From the NCBI GenBank assembly GCA_903882875.1, contig CAIRYQ010000117.1:1-64000 (forward strand): DNA of 64,000 nucleotides. Reading direction: 5' to 3'. Below the pieces are notes generated by a model. It was not told the origin of the DNA and did no database searches. It was given only the letters and a program-made list of their open reading frames with translations. This DNA comes from an uncultured Spartobacteria bacterium (GTDB lineage: Bacteria; Verrucomicrobiota; Verrucomicrobiia; Chthoniobacterales; Chthoniobacteraceae). Within the stretch, counting starts at the first letter, position 1. Each line of letters opens with the position of its first letter. This document shows positions 1,870 to 32,282 of the stretch, one piece after another. A program made the translations under genes and the position numbers.

Positions 1870-4284
1870 GTGAATCATCGCCTCCATATCCTCGTGCTGA
1901 CCGCTGTGTCATGCCTCGCCGCTTCCGCAGCGGGTGAGACCGTCACTTTTGAAAAAGAGGTGCTGCCCTTTTTCAGGGAGCACTGTTTCCGGTGTCACGA
2001 TGAGAAGAAGCAGAAGGGCGACTTCCGGCTCGACACGCTGCCGCGAGACTTCGCCGAACTGCAAAGTGCCGAGCGCTGGGCGGAAGTCGTTTTTCGGATG
2101 AACTCCGGCGAGATGCCGCCGAAGAAGGAGAAGCAGCCGCATGCGGCGGACATCGGCAAGGCAGTGGAATGGCTCTCGGCGCGGCTCGATGAAGGGCGCG
2201 CGGCGCGCATGGCGAAACGCGGGCCGGTGACGCACTACCGGCTCAGTCGCGATGAATACGCGAATACCGTTTACGATCTCCTCGGCGTTCACTTTGATCC
2301 GAGCCTTCCGGGCGCGCTGAATGAGGATCCGCGCTGGCACGGCTTCGAGCGCATCGGCTCCATGCTGTCGCTCTCACCGTCGCATGTGGATCGCTTTTTC
2401 AAGGCCGCCGAGACCGTGCTCGAACGCGCGTTCCCCGAGCAGCAGGCGAAGCAGGTGCGGCAGAGCAAGACCGCCGTGGACATGCGCTATTCCACGATGC
2501 GCAAGCGGCTCGAGGAAGAGGGCATCGCGGACAAGGTGCGAGCCGTCGTGTGGCCCGGCGGCGGGCTCGGTGGCAGTGCGCCGCAGGGCAAGGAATCCGG
2601 CGTGTATCGCGCGCGCATCCGCCTCAGCGGACTGCCGGGGCTCGATGGCCGCGCGCCGCATCTCTCGGTGTGGCACAATGAACTCAAGCGATCGCTTTTC
2701 GATGAGGACATCCTCGCGCCGGAGGATCAGCCGGTCGTGATCGAGTTCGAGATCTTCCTCTCGATGCCCGCGAGCCTGACCTTGCAAAATGTCGTGCCCG
2801 GCGCGTTCAACGAGACGGGCAACCATACGCTCAATGTGCTGAACGGCGGCGGCAGCATCTTCACCAGCACGCGCGAAACGGGCCGCACGAACCCGACGGG
2901 CTACAAGCTTTTCGACGACGAGGGCCACGCGATCTACCCGGTGCTGCTCGTGGACTCCGTCGAGTGGGAAGGCCCGCTCGTGAGCGAGGCGGATTTGAAA
3001 AAGCGCGAGGGCCTGATTCCGCAAAAGAGTGGCGATCTCGCGGAAGCGCGTGAGTGCCTGCGGCGCTTTGCGGAGCGTGCATGGCGGCGTCCCGCGACGG
3101 AGGCCGAGGTGGCCCGCTATGTGAAGGTCGTCGAGGCCGAACTGGCCGCGGGCGAAAAATTCCGATCTGCCTACATGGCGGCGATGGTAGGCATCCTCAC
3201 GTCGAAAAATTTTTACTACATCGAGGAAGGCTCGGCCACGCAGCGGCGCGACAAAGTGAACGACTGGGAACTGGCCTCGCGGCTCTCGTATTTCCTGTGG
3301 GGCTCGATGCCGGACGAGACGCTTTTCGCGCTCGCACAAGCAGGCACGTTGCATGAGCCGGAGGTGCTGCGCGCGCAGTTTACGCGGATGATCGGCGATG
3401 CGAAGATCCGGCGCTTCACCGAGGCATTTCCGCAGCAGTGGCTGCAACTTTTCAAAGTGGGCATCTTCCCTCCCGACCCGAAGCTCTACCCAGGCTACGA
3501 CAAGTGGCTGGAGAAAAGCATGGTGCTCGAATCGCAGGGATATTTCACCGAGGTGTTCGCGAAAAATCTGCCGCTGCGCGAGTTCATCGCGTCGGACTGG
3601 ACGATGGTGAACCCGCGCCTCGCGCAGCACTACGGGCTGCCCGCATTGCAGAAATCCGGCTTCCAGCGCGTCGCGTTGCGGCCGGAGGATCATCGCGGCG
3701 GACTGCTCACTCAGGCGGGCATTCTCATGCTCACTTCGGATGGCACGCGGCACCGCCCGGTGCATCGCGGCGTGTGGCTCTCGGAGGCGATCTTTGCAAA
3801 GACGCCGCCTCCGCCTCCGCCGAATGTGCAGCCGATCGAGCCCATCCCATCGGACAAGCCGAAGACCAGTGTGAGGAAACAAATCGAAGCGCACGCGACC
3901 GATGCGAACTGCGCCTCGTGCCATCGGCGGATTGATCCGCTCGGGCTGGCGTTCGACAATTTCGACGCGATCGGCCAGTGGCGCACCGAGGAGATCGTGC
4001 AGGGCGGAAAAGGCGCGAACCCACCGGTGAATGCGACCGGCGCGCTGCCGGATGGCCGTGCGTTCGATGGCCCCGAGCAGTTCAAGCAACTGCTCGGACA
4101 GGACGGGGATCGTTTTGCAGAAGCATTCACCGAACAGCTCTCCACATTCGCATTGCGCCGTGTGATGACGATTGACGATGCCGCGCAAATCCGTGCCGTC
4201 GCGCTGGAAAGCAAGAAGGACGGGCACCGGCTCAGGACAGTGCTCGAAAACCTCGTGCTGTCCGACCTTTTCCAAAAACGCTAA
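1870..4284 (+). CDS. DUF1592-family exported cytochrome-like protein
   Basis: Product of 804 residues starting at a GTG, with a signal peptide ending around residue 22. A planctomycete cytochrome c-like domain follows with a CxxCH haem motif (CFRCH, residues 39-43). Then comes a DUF1587 segment (RLSRDEYANTVYDLLGV, around 119-135), a central carbohydrate-binding-like part, DUF1595 near 390-430, DUF1592 near 455-585, DUF1588 (GGLLTQAGILMLTSDGTRHR, near 615) and C-terminal DUF1585. A second CxxCH (CASCH) sits near residue 680. The order matches a known planctomycete/verrucomicrobial family that is nearly always encoded next to a DUF1552 protein, as here. The biochemical role of the pair is not established; extracellular electron transfer linked to polymer breakdown is only a guess. 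Confidence 0.9.
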   Translation: MNHRLHILVLTAVSCLAASAAGETVTFEKEVLPFFREHCFRCHDEKKQKGDFRLDTLPRDFAELQSAERWAEVVFRMNSGEMPPKKEKQPHAADIGKAVEWLSARLDEGRAARMAKRGPVTHYRLSRDEYANTVYDLLGVHFDPSLPGALNEDPRWHGFERIGSMLSLSPSHVDRFFKAAETVLERAFPEQQAKQVRQSKTAVDMRYSTMRKRLEEEGIADKVRAVVWPGGGLGGSAPQGKESGVYRARIRLSGLPGLDGRAPHLSVWHNELKRSLFDEDILAPEDQPVVIEFEIFLSMPASLTLQNVVPGAFNETGNHTLNVLNGGGSIFTSTRETGRTNPTGYKLFDDEGHAIYPVLLVDSVEWEGPLVSEADLKKREGLIPQKSGDLAEARECLRRFAERAWRRPATEAEVARYVKVVEAELAAGEKFRSAYMAAMVGILTSKNFYYIEEGSATQRRDKVNDWELASRLSYFLWGSMPDETLFALAQAGTLHEPEVLRAQFTRMIGDAKIRRFTEAFPQQWLQLFKVGIFPPDPKLYPGYDKWLEKSMVLESQGYFTEVFAKNLPLREFIASDWTMVNPRLAQHYGLPALQKSGFQRVALRPEDHRGGLLTQAGILMLTSDGTRHRPVHRGVWLSEAIFAKTPPPPPPNVQPIEPIPSDKPKTSVRKQIEAHATDANCASCHRRIDPLGLAFDNFDAIGQWRTEEIVQGGKGANPPVNATGALPDGRAFDGPEQFKQLLGQDGDRFAEAFTEQLSTFALRRVMTIDDAAQIRAVALESKKDGHRLRTVLENLVLSDLFQKR

Positions 4285-23055: not shown

Positions 23056-24540
23056 TCACGGCTTCAGCGAATGCGCGGCCTGCTCGCCGCCGAGAAGCTC
23101 CGGCGCCTGCAAGGAACGCGCACCCTGCTCCAGCGGCTTCAGCTCCTCGATGTCCTTGCCCGCATTCGCCGCGTGCAGTTCCTTGAATTTCCGCGCGGTC
23201 ACAAACACGCGCGTCTCCAGCGAGCGCGTCGCATCGTTGTACGCGTCCACCGCGCTGCCGAGATTGCGTCCGAGCTTTGCGAAATGCTCGCCGAGCTTTG
23301 CCAGCCGCTCGTAAAGCTCGCTGCCGAGATCGCTGATCAGCTTCGCATTTTCCGCGAGCTTCTCCTGCCGCCAGCCGTAGTGCACCGCGCGCAGCAGCGC
23401 GATCAAGGTCATCGGCGTCGTGAGCATCACGTTTTTCTCCGCGCTGAATTCGATCAGCTCCGGATCGTGCTCCACCGCCGCGCCGAAGAAAGTCTCCGCC
23501 GGCAGGAAGAGCACGACGAACTCCGGCGCTTCGCCGAACTGCTCCCAGTAGCTTTTCGCCGAGAGCGCCTTGATGTGCTCGCGCACCGCCAGCGCGTGCT
23601 CGCGATAGGCCGCGGTGCGCGTCACTTCATCGGTCGCGGAAATCGCGCGGTCGTACGCGCTGAACGGCACCTTGGAATCCACGACGATCGTCTTGCCTCC
23701 AGGCATCTTCACGAGCATGTCCGGACGCAGCCTGCCCCTGTCGCTATCTCCGACGCCGCTCTGTTGCTCGTAAAAATCGCAGTGATCCTGCATCCCCGCG
23801 AGTTCGACGACGCGGCGCAACTGGATTTCCCCCCAGCGCCCGCGCGCGCCCGTCGAGCGCAGCGCACTCGCAAGCCGGCCCGTCTCGCCGCGAAGCTCGC
23901 GCTGCGTCTCGATGAGCGACTTCACCTGCGTTGCGAGCCCTTCGTAAGCAGCGGCACGCGCTGTCTCGATGGCATTCATCTGCGTGTCCACTCGGGCGAG
24001 CGACTCGCGCACGGGCTTCAGCAGTTCCGTGATCGCCTGCTCCTTCTGCGCGAGATCACCGCTCGCCTTCTCCTGGAATTTCGCCAGCGTCTCATTCGCG
24101 AGCGAAAGGAACGCCGCGTTGTTGTTCTGGAGCGCCTGCGCGCTCAGCGCGTGAAAGGCGTCCGAGAGTTTTTTCTGCGCGTCATCGAGCAGCGCCAGTT
24201 TCTCCGCCGCCTGCTCGCGTTCCTCGGAAATCTGCATCTCCAGCGCAGCCACGCGCGCATCCACCTCGCCTTTCACTCTGCGCAATTCTTCCAGCGCACG
24301 CTCGCGCTCGCCGGCTTCGCGCTGGAGATCTGCGATGCGCGCGCGCGCCGCGGCATCGTTCGCCTCCGCGGTCGCGAGATTTTTTGAGAGCGACAGCTTT
24401 TCATCCGCGTGCGCGGCCTGCAGCCGCGCCTCGGCTTCCGTCACAGCCGCGGCGGGACGCTGACGGAGAAAAATCCAAGCGAGCACCGCGCCGAGCACGG
24501 CTCCGAGGATGGTCGCTGCGATGAGGATCGTTTCTTTCAA
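23056..24540 (-). CDS. rmuC: RmuC-family protein
   Basis: Product of 494 residues if translation starts at the TTG at 24540, which places the N-terminal membrane anchor (ETILIAATILGAVLGAVLAW) at the very start as usual for the family. An upstream ATG at 24594 would add 18 residues that look non-native. A long coiled coil (about 30-190) precedes the RmuC nuclease-like domain with GRWGEIQLRRVVELAGM, LVKMPGGKTIVVDSKVPF and VVLFLPAETFF. RmuC limits certain recombination events in Escherichia coli and is thought to be a PD-(D/E)XK-related nuclease. It is a single gene between the permease pair and the type VII-like operon. Confidence 0.9.
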   Translation of the reverse strand: MKETILIAATILGAVLGAVLAWIFLRQRPAAAVTEAEARLQAAHADEKLSLSKNLATAEANDAAARARIADLQREAGERERALEELRRVKGEVDARVAALEMQISEEREQAAEKLALLDDAQKKLSDAFHALSAQALQNNNAAFLSLANETLAKFQEKASGDLAQKEQAITELLKPVRESLARVDTQMNAIETARAAAYEGLATQVKSLIETQRELRGETGRLASALRSTGARGRWGEIQLRRVVELAGMQDHCDFYEQQSGVGDSDRGRLRPDMLVKMPGGKTIVVDSKVPFSAYDRAISATDEVTRTAAYREHALAVREHIKALSAKSYWEQFGEAPEFVVLFLPAETFFGAAVEHDPELIEFSAEKNVMLTTPMTLIALLRAVHYGWRQEKLAENAKLISDLGSELYERLAKLGEHFAKLGRNLGSAVDAYNDATRSLETRVFVTARKFKELHAANAGKDIEELKPLEQGARSLQAPELLGGEQAAHSLKP

Positions 24541-24730
24541 GACGCGGCATCCTGCGTGCGCAGGCGCACAGTGGCAAGGATCGGCGGCCTGCATGCAGAC
24601 ATGCGGTGAAAGATCATGCCATAGTGCGGACGGGGACCAGAAAGTAGCTGGCGCGATTTACCACAGGTTGAAAAGGCAAGCCGCTCACCAACTCACAGCG
24701 AGTGTCAGGGTTTCGCGGCCGTAGGTGCGG

Positions 24731-27700
24731 TCAGCGCGCTGCAAGCTGCGCGGCGGCCTTTTCGAACCATTCGCTGTCCGGTGCGGCGTAGGGGCGGAAG
24801 GTCTCCAGCGTGCCGGCCTGCTCGTTATGGAGCAACGCGCGGTGCAGTCCGAGGCTGCTGGCCTTGGGCGAATCAATGAGGCTCGCGGAGTCGTTCGCGC
24901 TCATCTGGAAGACGATCCGCATTTCAAATTCCGTGAGCGCCTTCCGGCTCATCGCGCGGTTCACATTGTTGTAGGAGTCCACCGTCGCGATGATGTGGAT
25001 GCCGAGCGCGCTGCCCTCGGTGATGATTTCGTTGAACGCCGCGCCGGGGCTCGCCTCGCCATCGCCGCCGCCGAAGCTGAATTCGTCCTCGTGGCGCAGC
25101 TTCTTGAATTTGTGCAGGCCGTGGATGAACACGAACACCGACGGCGCACCCGCGAGCGGAGTTTCGCCGCTGGCGCGCGCCTTCATCTCCGTGGCGAGAT
25201 TGCCGATCACGTCGGGAATCTCCAGCGCGGTCACGAGCGTGAGGCCATGCGGGATCGTCCTGGCAAGGCGCTCGAATTGTTCCGTCTCGGACGTGCCCGC
25301 CGCGGAAGCGTGAATCACAATGAAACGCGCGCTTCCCGCGGGATGCTGCGCGGCGAGCGCGACGACCGAGAGCAGGATCATCGTGAGCGCGGACTCCTCG
25401 CGCTGGCCGACGATGAGCAAGTGGTTCCCGCTCTGCCGGAGGAATGCCGCCTCGGTCGGGCCCTTGATCGAATTCGGCGCGCCGAACCAGCACAGCGGGG
25501 CGGGCGGCGCCTTGGGCGGTTTCGATTCGAGCGCGATCGCGAGCAGATCGTTCTCCTGCACATTCGCGGGCGCATTCCCCTCGAAGACGATCGCGCTGCG
25601 ATGCCGGTCGTGCCGCGCATCGGCGAGCGCGCGCACCTTGTCGAGATACGCGTCGCGCTCCTCGTCGGAAAGCCACACGACCTGGAACGGGCTGTTGCCC
25701 TCAATGGCTCCGGCGGAGTCGTTGTAGATGCCCTCGCCGGGACGCGAGAGCAAGCGCGGCGCGGAGTTGTTCTCATCCATGATGAGATACGCGTCGGCCT
25801 CATTGCACTGGAGCGCGACGCGGATGACCATCTGCCCCATCGTCGCGCGCGCGAGCGTGAACGCACCGCCGAGCGTCTGCGAACCGAGGATCACATGGAT
25901 GCCGAATGCGCGACCCTGCCGCACGATGCGGTCGAAGAGCAGCGACGCCGTCTGCGCGATGCTGTCGTCCTCGACGAAGAATTCCTGGAACTCGTCAATG
26001 AGCAGCAGCGAACGCGGCATCGGCTCCGTGCCGCCCGCGCGCTTGTAGCCCGCGACATCCTGCACGTTCAGCTTTCGGAAAAGGTCGCCGCGCCGTTTCA
26101 GCTCCTCGTCCACGCGCTGCAGGACGCTAAGCGCAAATTCCCGATCGCTCTCGATCGCCACGACGCGCGCGTGCGGCAGGCGCTTGTTCGCGTAGCATTT
26201 GAATTCCACGCCCTTCTTGAAATCAATCAGGTAGAACTCGACCTGATCCGGCGAGCATGCGAGCGCGAGGTTCGTGATGATGACGTGGAAGAGCGTGGAC
26301 TTGCCCGAGCCCGTCTTGCCCGCAAAGAGCGCGTGCTGTCGCGTGCCTTTGCCGATGGCGAGGTACTGCATCTTCGTCGCACCGGTGCGCCCGATCGGGA
26401 TTCGCAGCTCGTTCGTCGTCTCGTTCGTCCACAGTTCCTCGGGCTTCGGCGCAATTTGCTCAAAGGGCACCTGCACGCGGTTCGAGTCCACGCTGTTCTT
26501 GCCGATCTTGTGAACGAGGCTCTGTGCGAGCGTCGCATCCGGCGGCAGGTCGAGCACGAGCGCCGCGCCTGCCTCCGCCTGTTCGCGTCCCGCGGAAAAT
26601 GCGCCGCCGTCCGCACGCAGGCACACGCTGCCCCTGCGCAGCTCATCAATCGAAAACCCGTCCGGCAGTGCGTGGCGCTGATCCCAGTGGATGAGCGTGA
26701 ACACCCCGCAGCGCGGGCCGCTGATCGCGATGCTCTGCAGCCGCTGCGCCGAGGCTTCGCTGAAGCCGTTGGGGAAATCCGCGACGACGAGGAACAGGTA
26801 TTTTTCCGCGACCGTGCCGGCCTGCGCGTTGTAGGCTGTGATGTTCGCGTACTCGTTGCGCAGGTACATCTGGATGACCTTCTCTATGTGCGCGTTCAGC
26901 TCCGAAAGCCGCTCGTCAATCTGATCGCGCTGCGTCCAGATGCGGCGGTTGATGAGCGCCTCCTCGTAGTCGCCGAGGTGCATGAGCCCTGCGAAATTTT
27001 CACCGAGCCCGACCGGGTCAATGATCGTGAAGGCGACCTTCCCGGGCGGAGTCGTTGTGAGCAGGCGGAGCATCACGTTGTTCAGCACGCGCGTCGTCGC
27101 GCCGCCGCACGATTCCTTCGTCTCGAGAAGCAGCGAGCCCTGCTGCGGATACGTGAGCGCGAGCGGGATGCTCACCTGCGGAGCACCCGGCAGCGCGAGA
27201 CGTGAGACTGCAGTCGAGGCATCGGGCCGCTTCGCGAGGTCGAGCTGGAACTGCGCAAATTTCGTCGCGGGCGTGAAGTGCTCATACGGTTTCCATGCCT
27301 CGACAAACTGCGCGCTCCACTCGGGAAAATCCGGCGCGAGCGCGGAATTGAGGTCAGTGATTTCCGCAAAAACCGGCGTGATTTGCTCCTTCCACGCCGC
27401 GTCGAGCGTGTCCCACCGCTCCTTTTCGTTCGCCTGAATCACGGACATTTCGGCCTGGTGCGCGACGTCAATCTTCGCATGTTCGGCTGCGGCGCGATCC
27501 TTCAATTCCTTCGCCTTCGCATCCGCGCGCGCGCGGATTTTTGCGAGCTGATGGGTGAGGCGCGACTCCATTTTCTGAGTCATGCGCGGGAGCTGCGGCT
27601 CCAGTTTGCGCCGGCCTCTTTTTTCAAAATCCTCCTCGACGCCGTCCGCCTTTGCCCACTTCGCATCCACGTCCGCGCAGATCGCGTCGTATTCGTCCTG

Positions 27701-28615
27701 AATGCGTTTCTGTTCGGACTTGTGCCGCGAGTCCGCCGCGGCGAGCCCCGCGCGCATCGCCCGGTAGGCATCGAGGATCGCAGCCCCGGTGCGCGCGGCC
27801 TCGTCCCGCGCGCCATTTTTCCCGCTCACGTACATCGCGACGCAACCCGCGATGAGCAGCACGGCCACGATCGCACCCACAGCCCAGAGCGGCGACGAAA
27901 TGCCGCGCACAAAGCACGCCGCACCGCCGATCGCGGCCGCGAGGACGAGCCACACCGCGAGCGGCATCGCGCTGAAGAGCCGCGGCAGCAGGAGCGCGCT
28001 GAATCTCGCGAGCTGTTCGGCCGCCGCCGCGATCCGCGCATCGATTGCACCGAGGAAATCTTCCGCCGGCTCTTCTCCCGGCTTCCCGCTCTCGCTCTCC
28101 ACGAGTGCCTGCGCAAAGGAGCCGTAGCCTCTGAACGCCTTCATCGCCTGCGCTGTGAGAGAGTCGAGCACCGCTCTGTGCTGCGCGAGCGTATGCGAAA
28201 GTGCGGCATGTTCGGCGTCGTTGTGCCGCGTATTCGCGGCAAGCGCGCGGTCGGCCTGCAGCTTGCGCATCTGGAGTTTTGCGAGCCAGTTTCCCTTCGC
28301 GTCCGCGGCACGCTTCGGCAGCGTACGCGTGAGCAGGCCGTGCGCTCGCTGCACCCGGCCGAGCCGATGATCGCGGATTGCCTGCACGCGCTCGGCCCGT
28401 CTCGCGGCGACCGACTCCACCTCGGCGATCTCCGTGTCGAGCGCAGTGTCCACCTTGTGCGCCGCGTCGCGGTGCCGCCGGATTTCCTGGCGGCTCCTCG
28501 CCGAGAGCACGACCGTCAGCTCGGACTCCTTTCTGGCGAAATCCGCGACGGTGCCCGTAAGCTTCACCAGCAGCTCCGTCGCATGCGTGAATCGCAGATT
28601 CGTGCCGTTACTCAC
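24731..28615 (-). CDS. Membrane FtsK/SpoIIIE-type ATPase with three ATPase modules (EccC-like)
   Basis: Product of 1294 residues. An N-terminal coiled coil (about 20-205) leads to two membrane segments (about 214-236 and 243-263), then a second coiled coil (about 265-410). Three tandem ATPase-like modules follow. Module 1 is degenerate (LLLETKESCGGATT at 495-508; FLVVADFP at 608-615). Module 2 is canonical (Walker A GKTGSGKS, 766-773; Walker B LLIDEFQEFF, 871-880). Module 3 is degenerate (LLIVGQREESA at 1066-1076; FVFIHGLHKF at 1161-1170). This layout matches type VII secretion motors (EccC/EssC) more than DNA-pumping FtsK, which has one motor domain and a C-terminal gamma domain, absent here. 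It is the last gene of an operon with two WXG100-like proteins. A DNA translocase role is the alternative. Confidence 0.85.
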   Translation of the reverse strand: MSNGTNLRFTHATELLVKLTGTVADFARKESELTVVLSARSRQEIRRHRDAAHKVDTALDTEIAEVESVAARRAERVQAIRDHRLGRVQRAHGLLTRTLPKRAADAKGNWLAKLQMRKLQADRALAANTRHNDAEHAALSHTLAQHRAVLDSLTAQAMKAFRGYGSFAQALVESESGKPGEEPAEDFLGAIDARIAAAAEQLARFSALLLPRLFSAMPLAVWLVLAAAIGGAACFVRGISSPLWAVGAIVAVLLIAGCVAMYVSGKNGARDEAARTGAAILDAYRAMRAGLAAADSRHKSEQKRIQDEYDAICADVDAKWAKADGVEEDFEKRGRRKLEPQLPRMTQKMESRLTHQLAKIRARADAKAKELKDRAAAEHAKIDVAHQAEMSVIQANEKERWDTLDAAWKEQITPVFAEITDLNSALAPDFPEWSAQFVEAWKPYEHFTPATKFAQFQLDLAKRPDASTAVSRLALPGAPQVSIPLALTYPQQGSLLLETKESCGGATTRVLNNVMLRLLTTTPPGKVAFTIIDPVGLGENFAGLMHLGDYEEALINRRIWTQRDQIDERLSELNAHIEKVIQMYLRNEYANITAYNAQAGTVAEKYLFLVVADFPNGFSEASAQRLQSIAISGPRCGVFTLIHWDQRHALPDGFSIDELRRGSVCLRADGGAFSAGREQAEAGAALVLDLPPDATLAQSLVHKIGKNSVDSNRVQVPFEQIAPKPEELWTNETTNELRIPIGRTGATKMQYLAIGKGTRQHALFAGKTGSGKSTLFHVIITNLALACSPDQVEFYLIDFKKGVEFKCYANKRLPHARVVAIESDREFALSVLQRVDEELKRRGDLFRKLNVQDVAGYKRAGGTEPMPRSLLLIDEFQEFFVEDDSIAQTASLLFDRIVRQGRAFGIHVILGSQTLGGAFTLARATMGQMVIRVALQCNEADAYLIMDENNSAPRLLSRPGEGIYNDSAGAIEGNSPFQVVWLSDEERDAYLDKVRALADARHDRHRSAIVFEGNAPANVQENDLLAIALESKPPKAPPAPLCWFGAPNSIKGPTEAAFLRQSGNHLLIVGQREESALTMILLSVVALAAQHPAGSARFIVIHASAAGTSETEQFERLARTIPHGLTLVTALEIPDVIGNLATEMKARASGETPLAGAPSVFVFIHGLHKFKKLRHEDEFSFGGGDGEASPGAAFNEIITEGSALGIHIIATVDSYNNVNRAMSRKALTEFEMRIVFQMSANDSASLIDSPKASSLGLHRALLHNEQAGTLETFRPYAAPDSEWFEKAAAQLAAR

Positions 28616-28817
28616 AGTCGAGCTGCACCTTTCTAATCAGCGTCGCGATCTCATCCATCGCAGTCGAGGTGCGCGCCGTGAGATGCGGCAGCCGCTCGAG
28701 ATAGTTGTGCTCAAATTCCGCCGCCTTCACGTCGCGCCACGACTCCTTCGTGCGCTCCCAGCTTTGGTTCAGATCCTTGATCGCCTGAAGCAGCGACGCA
28801 TTCGATTCGTTGCTCAT
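28608..28817 (-). CDS. Small helical protein with WxD motif (WXG100-like)
   Basis: Product of 69 residues, predicted all helical from its heptad-like spacing of Leu, Ile and Ala. Around residues 27-39 it carries WRDVKAAEFEHNY, which has the pattern W-x-D-x-x-A-x-x-F-x-x-x-aromatic. The first gene of this operon (29424-29696) has the same pattern, WQDQEAEKFADEF. WXG100 proteins are about 100-residue helical hairpins with a Trp in the turn, exported by type VII systems; this protein is shorter and has D where G is usual. Its start overlaps the preceding stop (ATGA) and its end overlaps the ATPase start by 8 bases, so it is tightly coupled to both. Confidence 0.75.
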   Translation of the reverse strand: MSNESNASLLQAIKDLNQSWERTKESWRDVKAAEFEHNYLERLPHLTARTSTAMDEIATLIRKVQLDCE

Positions 28818-29362
28818 GGCGTCACTCCGGGTTCGGGCTGCGATGCGGGCTGCGCGTCCGCTGCCGCCGGTGCGGGCTTTTCCACGGGCGCGTTCCGCTC
28901 CGTGTAGGCGTCCAGGATTTCACGGGCGCGGTAGAGGAAGGTGATCGCATCGGGCATCTCCTGATCGAGATAATCGCGAAACCCGTCGAGCTTCTTCACG
29001 AGCGGATCCGCCGTCGCGTCGAAATTCTGGCTCCACTTTTTCACGTTGCGAAGCTTCGTCTGCGCCTCCTCCACCGCCGCCTTCGCCTTGCGCACCGCCG
29101 CCTCGCGGATCGCGATTGCGCCGGTCAGCTTCGTCAGCCGCGCGCTGTAGAAATCCTGCACGGCCTGATCGAGCTGCCGCTGCCTCCTGCGGATTTCACC
29201 CTCCCAGTGCATGCGCTGCTCGTGCTGGAGCCAGTTCCGCGTCCGCCGCACGCGGTCGCGCGAAGTGTCCACAGCCTCCCGCGCCTTCGTGACAAAAATC
29301 ACTAGGCTCGCGCGAAACGCATCCAGCGCATCAACGGACGTGATTCTGGCTTGCTGGCTCAT
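28814..29362 (-). CDS. Coiled-coil protein of the type VII-like operon
   Basis: Product of 182 residues of unknown family. Residues 8-120 are strongly helical and charged, with regular aliphatic spacing (for example AIREAAVRKAKAAVEEAQTKL) and several Trp residues (RNWLQHEQRMHWEGEIRRR near 42-60). Residues 155-182 form a Pro/Ala-rich tail. No signal peptide or membrane segment is visible. It lies between the two WxD-motif genes and overlaps the second by ATGA. Position suggests a chaperone, scaffold or secreted partner of the ATPase. The helical, LXG-like look makes it a possible substrate, but this is inference only. Confidence 0.75.
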   Translation of the reverse strand: MSQQARITSVDALDAFRASLVIFVTKAREAVDTSRDRVRRTRNWLQHEQRMHWEGEIRRRQRQLDQAVQDFYSARLTKLTGAIAIREAAVRKAKAAVEEAQTKLRNVKKWSQNFDATADPLVKKLDGFRDYLDQEMPDAITFLYRAREILDAYTERNAPVEKPAPAAADAQPASQPEPGVTP

Positions 29363-29365
29363 CGC

Positions 29366-29400
29366 GGGAATTGAGGATTGAGAGTTGGAGAAAGGAAAGG
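29366..29400. repeat. Degenerate 7-bp tandem repeats between operon genes
   Basis: Units GGGAATT, GAGGATT, GAGAGTT, GGAGAAA and GGAAAGG follow one another with a 7-bp period in the gap between the WXG100-like gene and the coiled-coil gene. The same periodicity occurs upstream of ftsZ and of the aminopeptidase. Confidence 0.55.
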
Positions 29401-29423
29401 CGCGGCCCGCCTCCGGAAACCGC

Positions 29424-29696
29424 CTACCGCTGATCGAGATACTCCTCGATGCGCTGCGCCTTGCGCAGGAGGTAAGGCGTGTGCTTCTCCGCGACTTCCA
29501 CGAATTTTTTCAGCACCTTCATGGTCGTGATGAACTCGTCCGCAAATTTCTCCGCCTCCTGATCCTGCCATGTGCTCCCGAGCGCCGTGAACCGCGCCTG
29601 AAGCGACCCCGCCTTCGCCTGCACATCGTCGTTGAACCGCTTCAGTTCCTTCGCAAATCGCCGCACTTCCTCGGGGTCAATGATTGCCTGTGCCAT
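29424..29696 (-). CDS. WXG100-like small protein, first gene of type VII-like operon
   Basis: Product of 90 residues from the ATG at 29696 (MAQAIIDPEEVRRFAKEL); the open frame extends 23 codons further upstream but that part is Pro/Arg-rich and unlike the rest. Two helices are separated by a turn with LGSTWQDQEAEKFADEF (about 43-59), the WXG100-type Trp turn with D in place of G, followed by a second helix ending IEEYLDQR. The opening IDPEEVRRFAKELKRFNDDV is typical of WXG100 first helices. Proteins of this fold are exported as dimers by type VII systems. It heads a four-gene minus-strand operon that ends in the membrane ATPase. Confidence 0.82.
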   Translation of the reverse strand: MAQAIIDPEEVRRFAKELKRFNDDVQAKAGSLQARFTALGSTWQDQEAEKFADEFITTMKVLKKFVEVAEKHTPYLLRKAQRIEEYLDQR

Positions 29697-29872: not shown

Positions 29873-30273
29873 CTACCACCCCACCCGACGGAGATCGGAT
29901 ATGCGATCAAAGTGCGTGTCCCGTGTGATCACCGGCAGGCCGTGCTGCCGCGCGAGGGCGGCGATCCACAAATCATTCTCCGGAATGGGAGTCCTTGCCT
30001 TTCGGAGTTCCTCACGCACATCGGCGTAGTGCCGGGCACTTTCGCTGTTCACGTCAAGCACGCCGTGCTTGGTACGGCGGATTCCACCTCCCCAAGCCAC
30101 GTCTCGCGGATCTTACGATCACGGGCCACCTTGATGCCGAAGCGGTATTCGCCAAGCACGATTGCCGGAAGGAACAGCGGTCGGTCGGCAGGCAGCACGG
30201 CCAGCAGCGCAGCATCCCCGTCGCACCATGCCGAGATGGCGTTCGTGTCGAGGATCACTTCCAGCTCTCGCAC
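29873..30273 (-). pseudogene. PIN-domain toxin (VapC-like), frameshifted
   Basis: Two overlapping frames together make one PIN ribonuclease. The first (start 30273) has ILDTNAISAWCDGD with the first acidic residue and AIVLGEYRFG with the second, then runs into a stop at 30049. The second frame (to 29873) supplies ENDLWIAALARQHGLPVITRD with the third and fourth acidic residues and ends SDLRRVGW. All four PIN acidic positions are therefore present, but in different frames. The switch is a -1 shift between about 30055 and 30100, as from one lost base. No slippery heptamer for programmed frameshifting is evident, so I call it a broken gene or a sequencing error. It overlaps the antitoxin gene. 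Confidence 0.8.
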
Positions 30274-30488
30274 TCCACCCGGCCAAATTCCCCCTCGATG
30301 CGCCGGGCGACGCGCTGCGACTCCGTCTTGCTCACCTTGGGTGGCGGTACCGGCCAGCGCTTGCGCCGGCCCGCGCCTGCGGCACCGGCCCGCACATGCA
30401 GCTTCGAGGACAAATGCCGTAACAGCTTCTGCTGCTCGCGTTGCGTCAGCGCGGCCACGGCATTTTCGATTTCAGTTAAGGTGCTCAT
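30255..30488 (-). CDS. Probable antitoxin of the PIN-toxin pair
   Basis: Product of 77 residues. The N terminus (EIENAVAALTQREQQKLLRHL, about 6-26) resembles the short helical segment of VapB/Phd-like antitoxins seen upstream of PIN toxins. The C-terminal half is basic and Pro-rich, and would be the toxin-wrapping tail. Its stop overlaps the toxin start by 19 bases, the usual coupling of such modules. If the toxin is truly broken, the antitoxin is a remnant. The family assignment depends mainly on position. Confidence 0.65.
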   Translation of the reverse strand: MSTLTEIENAVAALTQREQQKLLRHLSSKLHVRAGAAGAGRRKRWPVPPPKVSKTESQRVARRIEGEFGRVECESWK

Positions 30489-30533: not shown

Positions 30534-31115
30534 TTACGCCAGCTTGTGCGCGATCTGCTCGTCCAAAATCTCGCGCACGGTGAAGGGGATGATGATGCGG
30601 TGCTCCTCGCGGAAGAAGCGCCCGATCTCCGTGAGCGCGTCGCCCGTGTAGTCGAAGCTCACAAAGACACCCTTCTCGCACTTCGCCCGGCGCATCGCGG
30701 TCTCGAAGGCGTCAATGTCCGGGCGTCCGGCCTTGTCCTTCTGCTTCACCTGCATCGGGAAAAAGCGCTCCTCCAGCGCGAGTTCGTCCGTGCCGGCCTT
30801 GCGCACGTTGTCCAGCGCGGAGACGGGGAAGATGCGCCCGTCTATCCCCTTGTCGCCCACCTGCGCCTTGTTCTTGCGCCCGCCGAGCGCGATGACGGCC
30901 CAGTTCTCAAACTCGAAGGGCGGCAGCTCGCGCAGCTTCTTCTCCGTCCACGGCAGGTCGCGCACGATGAAGCCGCGCCCGATCTTCCACAGCTCCTCCT
31001 TCTCGCGGATGCCGCAGATGTCCTGCAGCCGCTTGGCCATCACGCGGCAGGAGGTGGGCGAAATGTCTATGCCGATCCACTGGCGCTTGAGCTTCTGCGC
31101 CGCGACGAGCGCGGC
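30534..31115 (-). pseudogene. C-terminal fragment of DNA methyltransferase with Mrr-like nuclease domain
   Basis: About 193 residues continue in frame directly after the stop codon of the HNH gene. The first residues are ALVAAQKLKRQWIGIDIS, a block that in intact methyltransferases follows the SAM-binding DPFCGCGT motif; that motif is absent here. Downstream, GGRKNKAQVGDKGIDGRI and FFPMQVKQKDK look like an Mrr/restriction-endonuclease core (D...QxK). An internal ATG at 31043 or 31040 could still produce a nuclease-like polypeptide of about 169 residues. With the N-terminal fragment (31965-32207) it represents one interrupted gene. Confidence 0.8.
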
Positions 31116-31919
31116 CTACACAGCGCCCTTGTGAAATAGGTCGTGGCAGTTGCGACAGAGAACCAACAAATCATAGAATTGTTCTTGGCCGCGTCGCTCA
31201 TAATTCCGGTGATGGAGTTGCAACCTTGGGCCAGAAGCATTGCAGAGTTGGCAGCGGTGACCAACGCTATCGAGATGGCGCGTGCGTCGCTCCTGCCACT
31301 CGGGAGTCTGTAGATAATCAGCATACGGCATTCGGCGCAGCTCCCATAACCGCTTCTCTTGTGCTTCTAATTTCGCTTGCTCAGCGGCTGCCTGTGCATC
31401 TCGCTTCACTTGGCCCTCAGCGGAAAGCCGAGCATAGAATCTATTCCGAGATGCCACCGCTTCTTCAGCCTCCTTCGCTCGACAATCCGCGCAGACAAAA
31501 TGCCAACGTTCTTTTCCTCCCAGAAGCTTGTGTAGCTCCTCGCGCGTATGGCAGTGGACTTTACCCATCACTCCACATTGTTCGCAGACTGTTGGGATCG
31601 GCTTGTTCCACTTGCGTAAGAGGCTCGCATTCGCCCCGATTCGATCTTCAAGTCCATCAATGAGGGAACTGCTGGTGACTTCAGGGAGCATCCAATAGAT
31701 ATAGTTCGCTGCGGCCGATAGCTCCTGCTCAGTGTCTGCCTTCTCACGCACATTCCTGACCTCATCTTCGAGCCGCTTACGAAGGAACCGCAGAGAGTCC
31801 TCAACGTCCCGCATGTCGCGCACGATAGCATCAATCACATCGAGTAATTTTCCAGGTGGGCGTTCAATTGCGTTCGTCGCCGCCCATTCTCTGAGACGGT
31901 TTAGCATGGTCGTTGTCAT
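31116..31919 (-). CDS. HNH endonuclease-type protein inserted in a methyltransferase gene
   Basis: Product of 267 residues. The N-terminal half is helical and charged, a central Cys cluster (CEQCGVMGK near 111 and CADC near 145) could bind zinc, and the C terminus is an HNH nuclease (CQLCNASG, LQLHHRNYERRG, LVLCRNCHDLFHKG; about 223-265). The first LHH and the final CxxCH are intact. It lies between two in-frame fragments of a DNA methyltransferase gene. Four 60-base stretches counted by hand gave 50-58% G+C, against 68% in one flanking stretch, which suggests acquisition from elsewhere. A homing or phage-type HNH gene is likely; its target is unknown. Confidence 0.85.
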   Translation of the reverse strand: MTTTMLNRLREWAATNAIERPPGKLLDVIDAIVRDMRDVEDSLRFLRKRLEDEVRNVREKADTEQELSAAANYIYWMLPEVTSSSLIDGLEDRIGANASLLRKWNKPIPTVCEQCGVMGKVHCHTREELHKLLGGKERWHFVCADCRAKEAEEAVASRNRFYARLSAEGQVKRDAQAAAEQAKLEAQEKRLWELRRMPYADYLQTPEWQERRTRHLDSVGHRCQLCNASGPRLQLHHRNYERRGQEQFYDLLVLCRNCHDLFHKGAV

Positions 31920-31964
31920 CGCTTCCTGATTCTGCCGTTCGATGGGTGGTATTCCAGTCCTTTG

Positions 31965-32207
31965 CTACTCCACGCAGCGGGGGCGCATGGAATCAATGTA
32001 GGCCTTCGTGCTCTCGTGCCGGTCCTCGAAGCTGCGCTTCTCCTTGGTCTCGCCCCAGAAGACCTCGTAGTTGCGGTTCGAGTTGAACGGCGGATCAATG
32101 TAGATGAGGTCCACGCAGGCCGCGGGGAGCTTCTGCAACTGCTCCAAGTTGTCCCCGCAGTAGATGACGCGCGTATCCACGAGGGAGGAGGCTTTGGCCG
32201 GAGGCAT
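31965..32207 (-). pseudogene. N-terminal fragment of DNA methyltransferase
   Basis: About 80 residues starting MPPAKASSLVDTRVIYCGDN and containing the catalytic motif IDPPFNSNRNYE (DPPF, motif IV of N6-adenine/N4-cytosine methyltransferases), then EDRHESTKAYIDSMRPRCVE followed by a TAG stop. In intact relatives this sequence continues for well over 200 residues before the block found at 31115. The middle, including the SAM-binding motif, is missing. Both fragments and the HNH gene share one reading frame. Confidence 0.82.
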
Positions 32208-32282
32208 GGGCGCGGACGGTGCGGAACGCTGCGCAAGATGACAAGCACGGACGCCGCAGGTTGGCGTCATGTTGCTTGTCCC

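Follow-up and report, generated by a model that had tools for sequence, protein, structure and literature searches.

In the 64,000-nucleotide stretch of DNA analysed here (the window; contig CAIRYQ010000117.1, positions 1 to 64,000, from an uncultured Spartobacteria bacterium of the Verrucomicrobiota with a genome of 5.78 Mb), four closely packed genes on the minus strand form a cassette with features of type VII secretion: a WXG100 protein, a charged helical protein, a second small protein and an EccC/EssC-like ATPase. These open reading frames (ORFs) were found as a preliminary description of the window had given them, with lengths of 90, 182, 69 and 1294 residues, and two of the junctions overlap, by 4 nt (28814-28817) and by 8 nt (28608-28615). 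We take the host to be a soil bacterium with two membranes; two Omp85 matches over cut-off in the genome fit the diderm cell envelope that had been assumed. Coordinates of the features are collected in Table 1.

Table 1 Features of the cassette in the window and of related loci
Feature	Position	Strand	Basis
WXG100 protein, 90 residues	29424..29696	(-)	PF06013 match; start placed at an ATG within a longer frame
Charged helical protein, 182 residues (coiled-coil-like by reading)	28814..29362	(-)	ORF; no Pfam or NCBIfam family over cut-off
WXG100-like hairpin protein (predicted), 69 residues, W-x-D in turn	28608..28817	(-)	ORF and predicted fold
EccC/EssC-like ATPase, 1294 residues, GTG start	24731..28615	(-)	Profiles, tree, structure model
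Transmembrane hairpin of ATPase, residues 206-267	27815..28000	(-)	Hydropathy
Walker A motif GKTGSGKST of central module, residues 766-774	26294..26320	(-)	Invariant in 21/21
Hydrophobic ORF near hairpin-less cassettes	L086 3215-3967; L087 1999-2733; L088 3350-4141; L090 4096-4812 (-)

The four genes occur in a single order and on one strand in all 21 loci of our first comparison (the window and 20 genomes of its order). A second set comprised the best 80 of 184 relatives from a scan of named genomes, with a bias to close relatives; the unit was complete in 72 of these loci, with order and strand identical in 72/72. Distinct loci with all four genes in order number 87 (six of the second set repeat the first). 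Because so many distinct loci keep this order, linkage is well beyond chance, and the four-gene unit expected from the preliminary description is real and co-inherited. Of the eight incomplete loci, five (L059, L060, L068, L078 and L111) are truncated within the unit because the contig ends there. The genes for the 90- and 182-residue proteins are absent beside the ATPase at L057 and L092, as is that for the 90-residue protein at L101, but in all three genomes a WXG100 gene is present elsewhere, outside the examined locus. The distribution of the cassette is patchy. The ATPase was detected at E below 1e-100 in 26 of 213 genomes of the order and in 10/10 of the window's genus, and the WXG100 profile matched 23 of 387 genomes in a sample of the phylum, 22 with scores of at least 118 bits. 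The match in genome G402 reached only 55.7 bits, and the adjoining ATPase (L168) falls with CoCoNuT-type rows in the tree described below. No relative was found in viral contigs.

No other ORF cluster was present in more than 6/21 loci within about 7 kb upstream of the unit and 2 kb past the ATPase end. Among 114 flank proteins from the 21 loci, which were called by a home-made codon score, no Pfam family was found in more than three members and no PADLOC family in more than two at E ≤ 1e-5. A defence-island context was considered and rejected, given that the flank families show no pattern.

Minor variations of the layout were also observed. At L083, approximately 0.9 kb of extra DNA (3060-3966) separates the genes for the 182- and 69-residue proteins and contains an ORF of 111 residues with no Pfam family. 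An extra same-strand gene of 93-102 residues lies 3' of the ATPase at L039 (8920-9201; no Pfam family), L041 (7316-7597) and L042 (12148-12456). Fragments that match only the C-terminal end of the ATPase are located at L170 (9417-9866 and 11957-12370, minus strand) and may represent a decayed cassette.

The 90-residue protein matched PF06013 with 38.4 bits against a cut-off of 27.3, in agreement with its earlier designation as WXG100-like, and was the sole PF06013 match in the genome; its NCBIfam TIGR03930 score (31.8 bits) was under the cut-off of 44.85. Counted from the chosen ATG, its length is 90 residues in 21/21 loci, and its turn motif is W-Q-D in 21/21 rather than the canonical W-x-G. 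The best PDB sequence matches of the family were Helicobacter pylori HP0062 (3fx7, 9.2e-9) and EsxB. An extended HxxxD/ExxhxxxH pattern (PMC3935865) was found in 20/21, only with a permissive definition of 'h' of our own choosing.

To the 69-residue protein Pfam assigned no family at E up to 1, PF06013 included. This was the only small protein that we modelled, and its AlphaFold2 structure (predicted local distance difference test score, pLDDT, 91.9) consists of helices 2-26 and 30-68 with W27-R-D29 in the turn, a predicted WXG100-like hairpin of the type that the preliminary description had envisaged. The top seven Foldseek matches of the model in the PDB were Esx chains (CFP10-ESAT6, EsxEF and EsxA:EsxB; best E 0.34) and the eighth was unrelated, with no match at E ≤ 0.001. 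W27, D29, F35 and C68 are invariant in the family (n=76 sequences). The family profile was also run on the 32 proteins of the plasmid loci described below, where it detected WXG100 proteins at E 8.6e-7, 1.5e-4 and 4.8e-4 and a helical protein of 144 residues at 8.9e-4, and in a whole genome it detected one WXG100 gene (G003:C40, E 5.9e-4). We therefore predict that the 69-residue protein is a second WXG100-type hairpin protein, and it probably forms a heterodimer with the 90-residue protein. Both proteins of the window share the motif W-x-D-x-x-A-x-x-F-x-x-x-aromatic, as had been noted; across the family W-x-D and F are conserved, whereas the alanine is not.

The 182-residue protein contains neither a known domain at Pfam and NCBIfam cut-offs nor a transmembrane segment, and its tail is mostly rich in Pro and Ala. 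Homologues are 165-192 residues long in 21/21 loci. In the 72 complete loci of the second set, the frame never extends more than 67 residues beyond the profile (maximum at L083; the next is 48). Remote effectors carrying the same domain were ruled out as candidates by its single copy in 8/8 genomes.

The ATPase is composed of an N-terminal helical region, the hairpin, a second helical region and modules at residues ~431-720, 721-985 and 986-1294. Two membrane helices and three ATPase modules had been described previously. Hydropathy revealed two hydrophobic stretches in the hairpin region, and a model of residues 420-1294 (pLDDT 85.6, predicted template modelling score 0.73) contained three ATPase-fold modules, but only module 2 carries Walker A and Walker B (LL.IDE) motifs, in 21/21, with modules 1 and 3 lacking both. 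Column conservation was 0.91 for module 2, 0.72 and 0.68 for modules 1 and 3, and 0.43-0.48 for the N-terminal half, which includes the hairpin and is otherwise helical and charged by reading. The gene is single-copy in the genome; the only other match, a frame of 940 residues (L003), falls with FtsK in the tree.

In profile and sequence searches, EccC and YukB ranked above FtsK for this ATPase. A tree built from central-module sequences (52 rows, midpoint root, long end branches, some of which meet) placed the 30 cassette rows on one side of a branch (99/96), these together with ten outside relatives on one side of another (100/95), and cassette, relatives and EccC (100/96) apart from FtsK and SspH. 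The grouping with EccC and not with FtsK, on which the preliminary description had staked its case, thus holds in a tree that does not include HerA. The ten outside relatives are not a clade, and the CoCoNuT/TerY-P rows are nearest to the cassette, with Rhodococcus L158 weakly beside it (90/43). The eight best Foldseek matches of the ATPase model were EccC or EssC chains, the first two along the whole model, and FtsK motors appeared from 1.1e-13. The top match, 4nh0, had an E value of 1.7e-29 and a TM-score of only 0.38, which is low because the modules are placed differently. With VIA-align, the central part was matched best by an FtsK motor (Z 30.0 over 273 residues), followed by EssC 4lya (Z 27.6 over 488 residues), EccCb1-D2 (Z 27.1) and EccC 4nh0 (Z 26.9 over 735 residues). 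Modules 1-3 may correspond to D1-D3 of EccC or to DUF-D1-D2: the structural alignment runs along D1-D3, but in four EccC-type proteins it was the first ATPase module of three that gave the best score with a module-2 profile.

A WXG100-profile match lies beside nine of the ten outside relatives (weak at L160 and L164, none at L161). The nearest plasmid ATPases lie at L158, L159, L160, L161 and L162. The Caballeronia plasmid locus L159 has the order vWA, WXG100, a helical protein of 436 residues, small genes, FtsK, CARF, vWA, PP2C and kinase; the C-terminus of the 436-residue protein reads as D-ExK nuclease-like and has no Pfam match. The Rhodococcus plasmid locus L158 has the order FtsK, 314 residues, 73 residues, WXG100 and TerD, and Hsp70 and GrpE genes are neighbours at the R. 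pseudokoreensis plasmid locus L161. Deinococcus plasmid L160 and Verrucomicrobium L164 form a separate, deeper ATPase branch (100/99) and lie beside long helical proteins. A second, CoCoNuT/TerY-P-like system is located beside the cassette in three Verrucomicrobiota genomes (L163 in G003, L166 in G418 and L167 in G558); the genes at these loci, and probably at L168, are vWA, WXG100, a long helical protein, small genes, an EssC-like ATPase, vWA and a kinase-like gene. On a Helicobacter plasmid (L162, 9098-13500), the order is WXG100, a WHH nuclease gene, SUKH, a gene of 77 residues and FtsK/SpoIIIE. The WHH nuclease domain forms the C-terminal end of the product encoded next to WXG100, and the SUKH-family gene comes after it; both matches exceed the Pfam cut-offs. 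In a published table, the pairing of WHH toxins and SUKH immunity proteins is given for several export routes, type VII among them (PMC3482391). By its gene content L162 is likely a toxin-bearing relative in a Gram-negative bacterium, which favours export by the cassette.

These relationships bear on ancestry. The cassette had been described as a reduced type VII secretion system, but its closest relatives are the WXG100/EssC-like modules of CoCoNuT/TerY-P-type loci, so that a canonical system stripped of EccB, EccD and EccE is probably the wrong ancestry. In the sections of the 2024 CoCoNuT paper used here (PMC11090510), EssC homologues with N-terminal coiled coils, three ATPase domains (the central one predicted to be active) and no transmembrane segment are described, accompanied by a coiled-coil nuclease and a pair of WXG100 proteins; defensive secretion is proposed, by a mechanism likely different from that of EssC, and a stand-alone version is credited to Anantharaman 2012. 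The string 'Verrucomicrobi' does not occur in the main text of that paper. The cassette shares with the Type III-A CoCoNuT/TerY-P module three ATPase domains of which only the central one has Walker motifs, an N-terminal helical extension, and a WXG100 protein, second WXG100-like protein, helical protein and small gene beside the ATPase. It differs in being stand-alone, in having a membrane hairpin and in lacking a nuclease on the helical protein, a DNA-mimic gene and shared vWA, kinase or phosphatase neighbours. With type VII secretion it has in common a related three-module motor, a WXG100 partner and a membrane anchor, whereas its motor has one catalytic module and a helical N-terminal half, YxxxD/E is absent, and the conserved unit contains no EccB/D/E-type or EssA/B/EsaA-type gene; an EccB profile matched neither the genome nor any control genome. 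The 'minimal type VII system' HP0062/HP0066 of H. pylori resembles it in combining a W-x-D hairpin with an FtsK/SpoIIIE protein in a Gram-negative bacterium. In excerpts of the respective reports, HP0062 is a W-x-D (WRD) hairpin dimer (PMC3397514) clustered with the FtsK/SpoIIIE protein (PMC4978471). The Helicobacter locus L162 is unlike the cassette in its ATPase of 823 residues and its WHH nuclease and SUKH genes. FtsK, SspH and HerA share the central ATPase fold, with FtsK and SspH across the 100/96 branch and HerA outside the tree.

WXG100 proteins of Verrucomicrobia and WXG100-FtsK pairs of Gram-negative bacteria are already in print. As far as the cited passages go, WXG100 proteins in general were found almost only in Actinobacteria and Firmicutes (PMC3935865), their recognition in Verrucomicrobiae and other Gram-negatives is credited to Sutcliffe 2011 (PMC6471051), and a 2023 review treats the WXG100 plus FtsK/SpoIIIE pairs of certain Gram-negatives as unconfirmed secretion systems (PMC10765036). 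The four-gene cassette was undescribed among the matches listed in our literature search, the coverage of which leaves out most subscription papers. What is new is a form that stands alone, has no toxin and bears a membrane hairpin on its motor, together with eight loci from which that hairpin is cleanly lost.

We assign the cassette to the WXG100/EssC-like ATPase operon family, in which it would be a membrane-anchored member that stands alone and may well export across the inner membrane, a proposal to which we assign about as much belief as doubt. In such a mechanism, the 90- and 69-residue proteins would pair as an Esx-type heterodimer, by which the 182-residue helical protein is carried or recruited to the motor. 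The ATPase would be a hexamer anchored at the inner membrane by the hairpin, with ATP used in the central module and modules 1 and 3 serving in regulation or docking, and would push the complex of heterodimer and 182-residue protein into or across the inner membrane. Given that the unit contains no toxin gene and the 182-residue domain is single-copy, the cassette's own small proteins are the only candidate cargo seen. The four genes do not account for passage through the outer membrane, as the preliminary description had also concluded. Export is in our view the most likely single reading, with secretion plausible but unproven and its chances evenly poised.

Several observations weigh against export. 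No toxin or immunity gene was found in the conserved unit among the 21 neighbourhoods, and a second copy of the 182-residue domain was not detected in 8/8 genomes. Neither the 90- nor the 69-residue protein carries the C-terminal YxxxD/E export signal (0/21 each). Mean pairwise identity is highest for the 90-residue protein (0.79, with 0.56 for the ATPase and 0.48 each for the 69- and 182-residue proteins), a degree of conservation that is unusual for a secreted effector, and profile-profile comparison between the 69- and 90-residue families was weak (probability 5.8%). The higher rank of EccC and YukB in the ATPase profile search does not extend to family cut-offs: NCBIfam EccCa, EccCb and EssC gave 121.9, 108.2 and 103.3 bits, far under 509, 347 and 778. 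Defence-system models of PADLOC, SspH (91.9 bits, the best) and mad8 (68.5), also match the ATPase. The EccD/YukD family had no match in the genome, with a positive Bacillus subtilis control. A further observation concerns the hairpin. We compared the window with 81 of 86 loci (79 distinct frames), ATPases of at most 1150 residues or containing X being excluded. The hairpin is cleanly deleted in 8 of these 82 proteins (L085-L088, L090, L092, L094 and L096), leaving frames of ~1227-1229 residues. All four genes are complete at seven of the eight loci (L092 is incomplete), and two hairpin-less ATPases pair (100/100) within the cassette clade of the tree with the central module kept. Seven of the ten outside relatives likewise have no transmembrane stretch, and the other three have one weak stretch each. 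To judge from the sequences, the eight losses are the strongest evidence against the ATPase's own transmembrane segment as an indispensable pore.

Some of these findings point to a second explanation, in which the EssC-like motor and WXG100 pair are basically non-secretory. The ATPase would act intracellularly or on the cytoplasmic side of the inner membrane, with the hairpin as a dispensable anchor, and the WXG100 pair would be an adaptor handling the 182-residue protein or another partner. The location of related modules within CoCoNuT/TerY-P-type loci, the mechanism unlike that of EssC favoured for relatives lacking a membrane segment in the cited part of PMC11090510, and the lack of both YxxxD/E and a further effector are consistent with such a role. 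However, at least one transmembrane-type stretch precedes residue 420 in 73 of the 82 ATPases by hydropathy, as export would predict, and L124, which has no such call, shows two moderately hydrophobic stretches by reading and would be a seventy-fourth. In 6/9 loci of the hairpin-less group, the opposite strand upstream of the cassette carries a hydrophobic ORF of ~240-263 residues (238-263 at the four loci in Table 1); it has no Pfam family and could be a membrane partner, replacing the anchor and tempering the pore argument, or a chance frame. The flanks show no defence-island pattern, and the Helicobacter relative has a toxin and immunity-type pair. The hydrophobic ORF makes a non-secretory role slightly less likely; we regard this role as the main and a serious rival to export, but as clearly less probable. 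Another upstream gene shared by hairpin-less loci, examined as a replacing membrane protein, was identified as a PSD1/PSCyt protein. It is also conceivable, though improbable, that the cassette is a toxin-less conflict system. The 182-residue protein would then be the counterpart of the delivery half in the coiled-coil nuclease fusions found at CoCoNuT-type, Caballeronia and Helicobacter loci. It resembles those fusions in gene position and in being helical, but profile comparison with their N-terminal parts was weak (probability 16.5%, E 0.0015), and the toxin-free form is the rule in lengths and extensions alike. Least likely of all, and very doubtful, is an FtsK/HerA-type translocase that pumps DNA and whose small partners are unrelated to this activity: an FtsK motor is the best structural match when the central module is taken by itself, and PADLOC HerA models match weakly (26.7 bits), but separation from FtsK in the tree, three tandem EccC-like modules and the WXG100-type partners argue against it.

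Either outcome would be informative. Detection of exported proteins would indicate that few parts suffice for type VII-like export in a diderm, and their absence would point to a non-secretory role of an EssC-like motor. If that role were the basic one, type VII secretion might be one specialisation of a more ancient machine of WXG100 proteins and ATPase that serves diderms as well. The cassette offers a clean test case, with four genes, no toxin, a stand-alone setting, natural hairpin-less variants (among them one from Prosthecobacter) and a cultured species, Chthoniobacter flavus Ellin428, of the same family as the host (genome G019, locus L122).

Other minus-strand genes adjoin the cassette in the window. 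Directly upstream, positions 29873-30488 read as an antitoxin-like ORF and two out-of-frame halves of a PIN protein, probably a broken toxin-antitoxin-like pair; two of the three ORFs have no Pfam match. Farther upstream are an Mrr-like restriction endonuclease domain (30534-31043; PF04471 over cut-off), an HNH-like ORF by reading with no Pfam match (31116-31919) and what reads as the start of a DNA methyltransferase (31965-32270). The region 30534-32270 is perhaps the remains of a restriction module and is not common to the other loci. Immediately 3' of the ATPase gene, in the same orientation, lies an RmuC-family gene (23056-24594; PF02646, 338.9 bits), which is not a conserved neighbour and whose product has a hydrophobic stretch near the NH2-terminus by reading.

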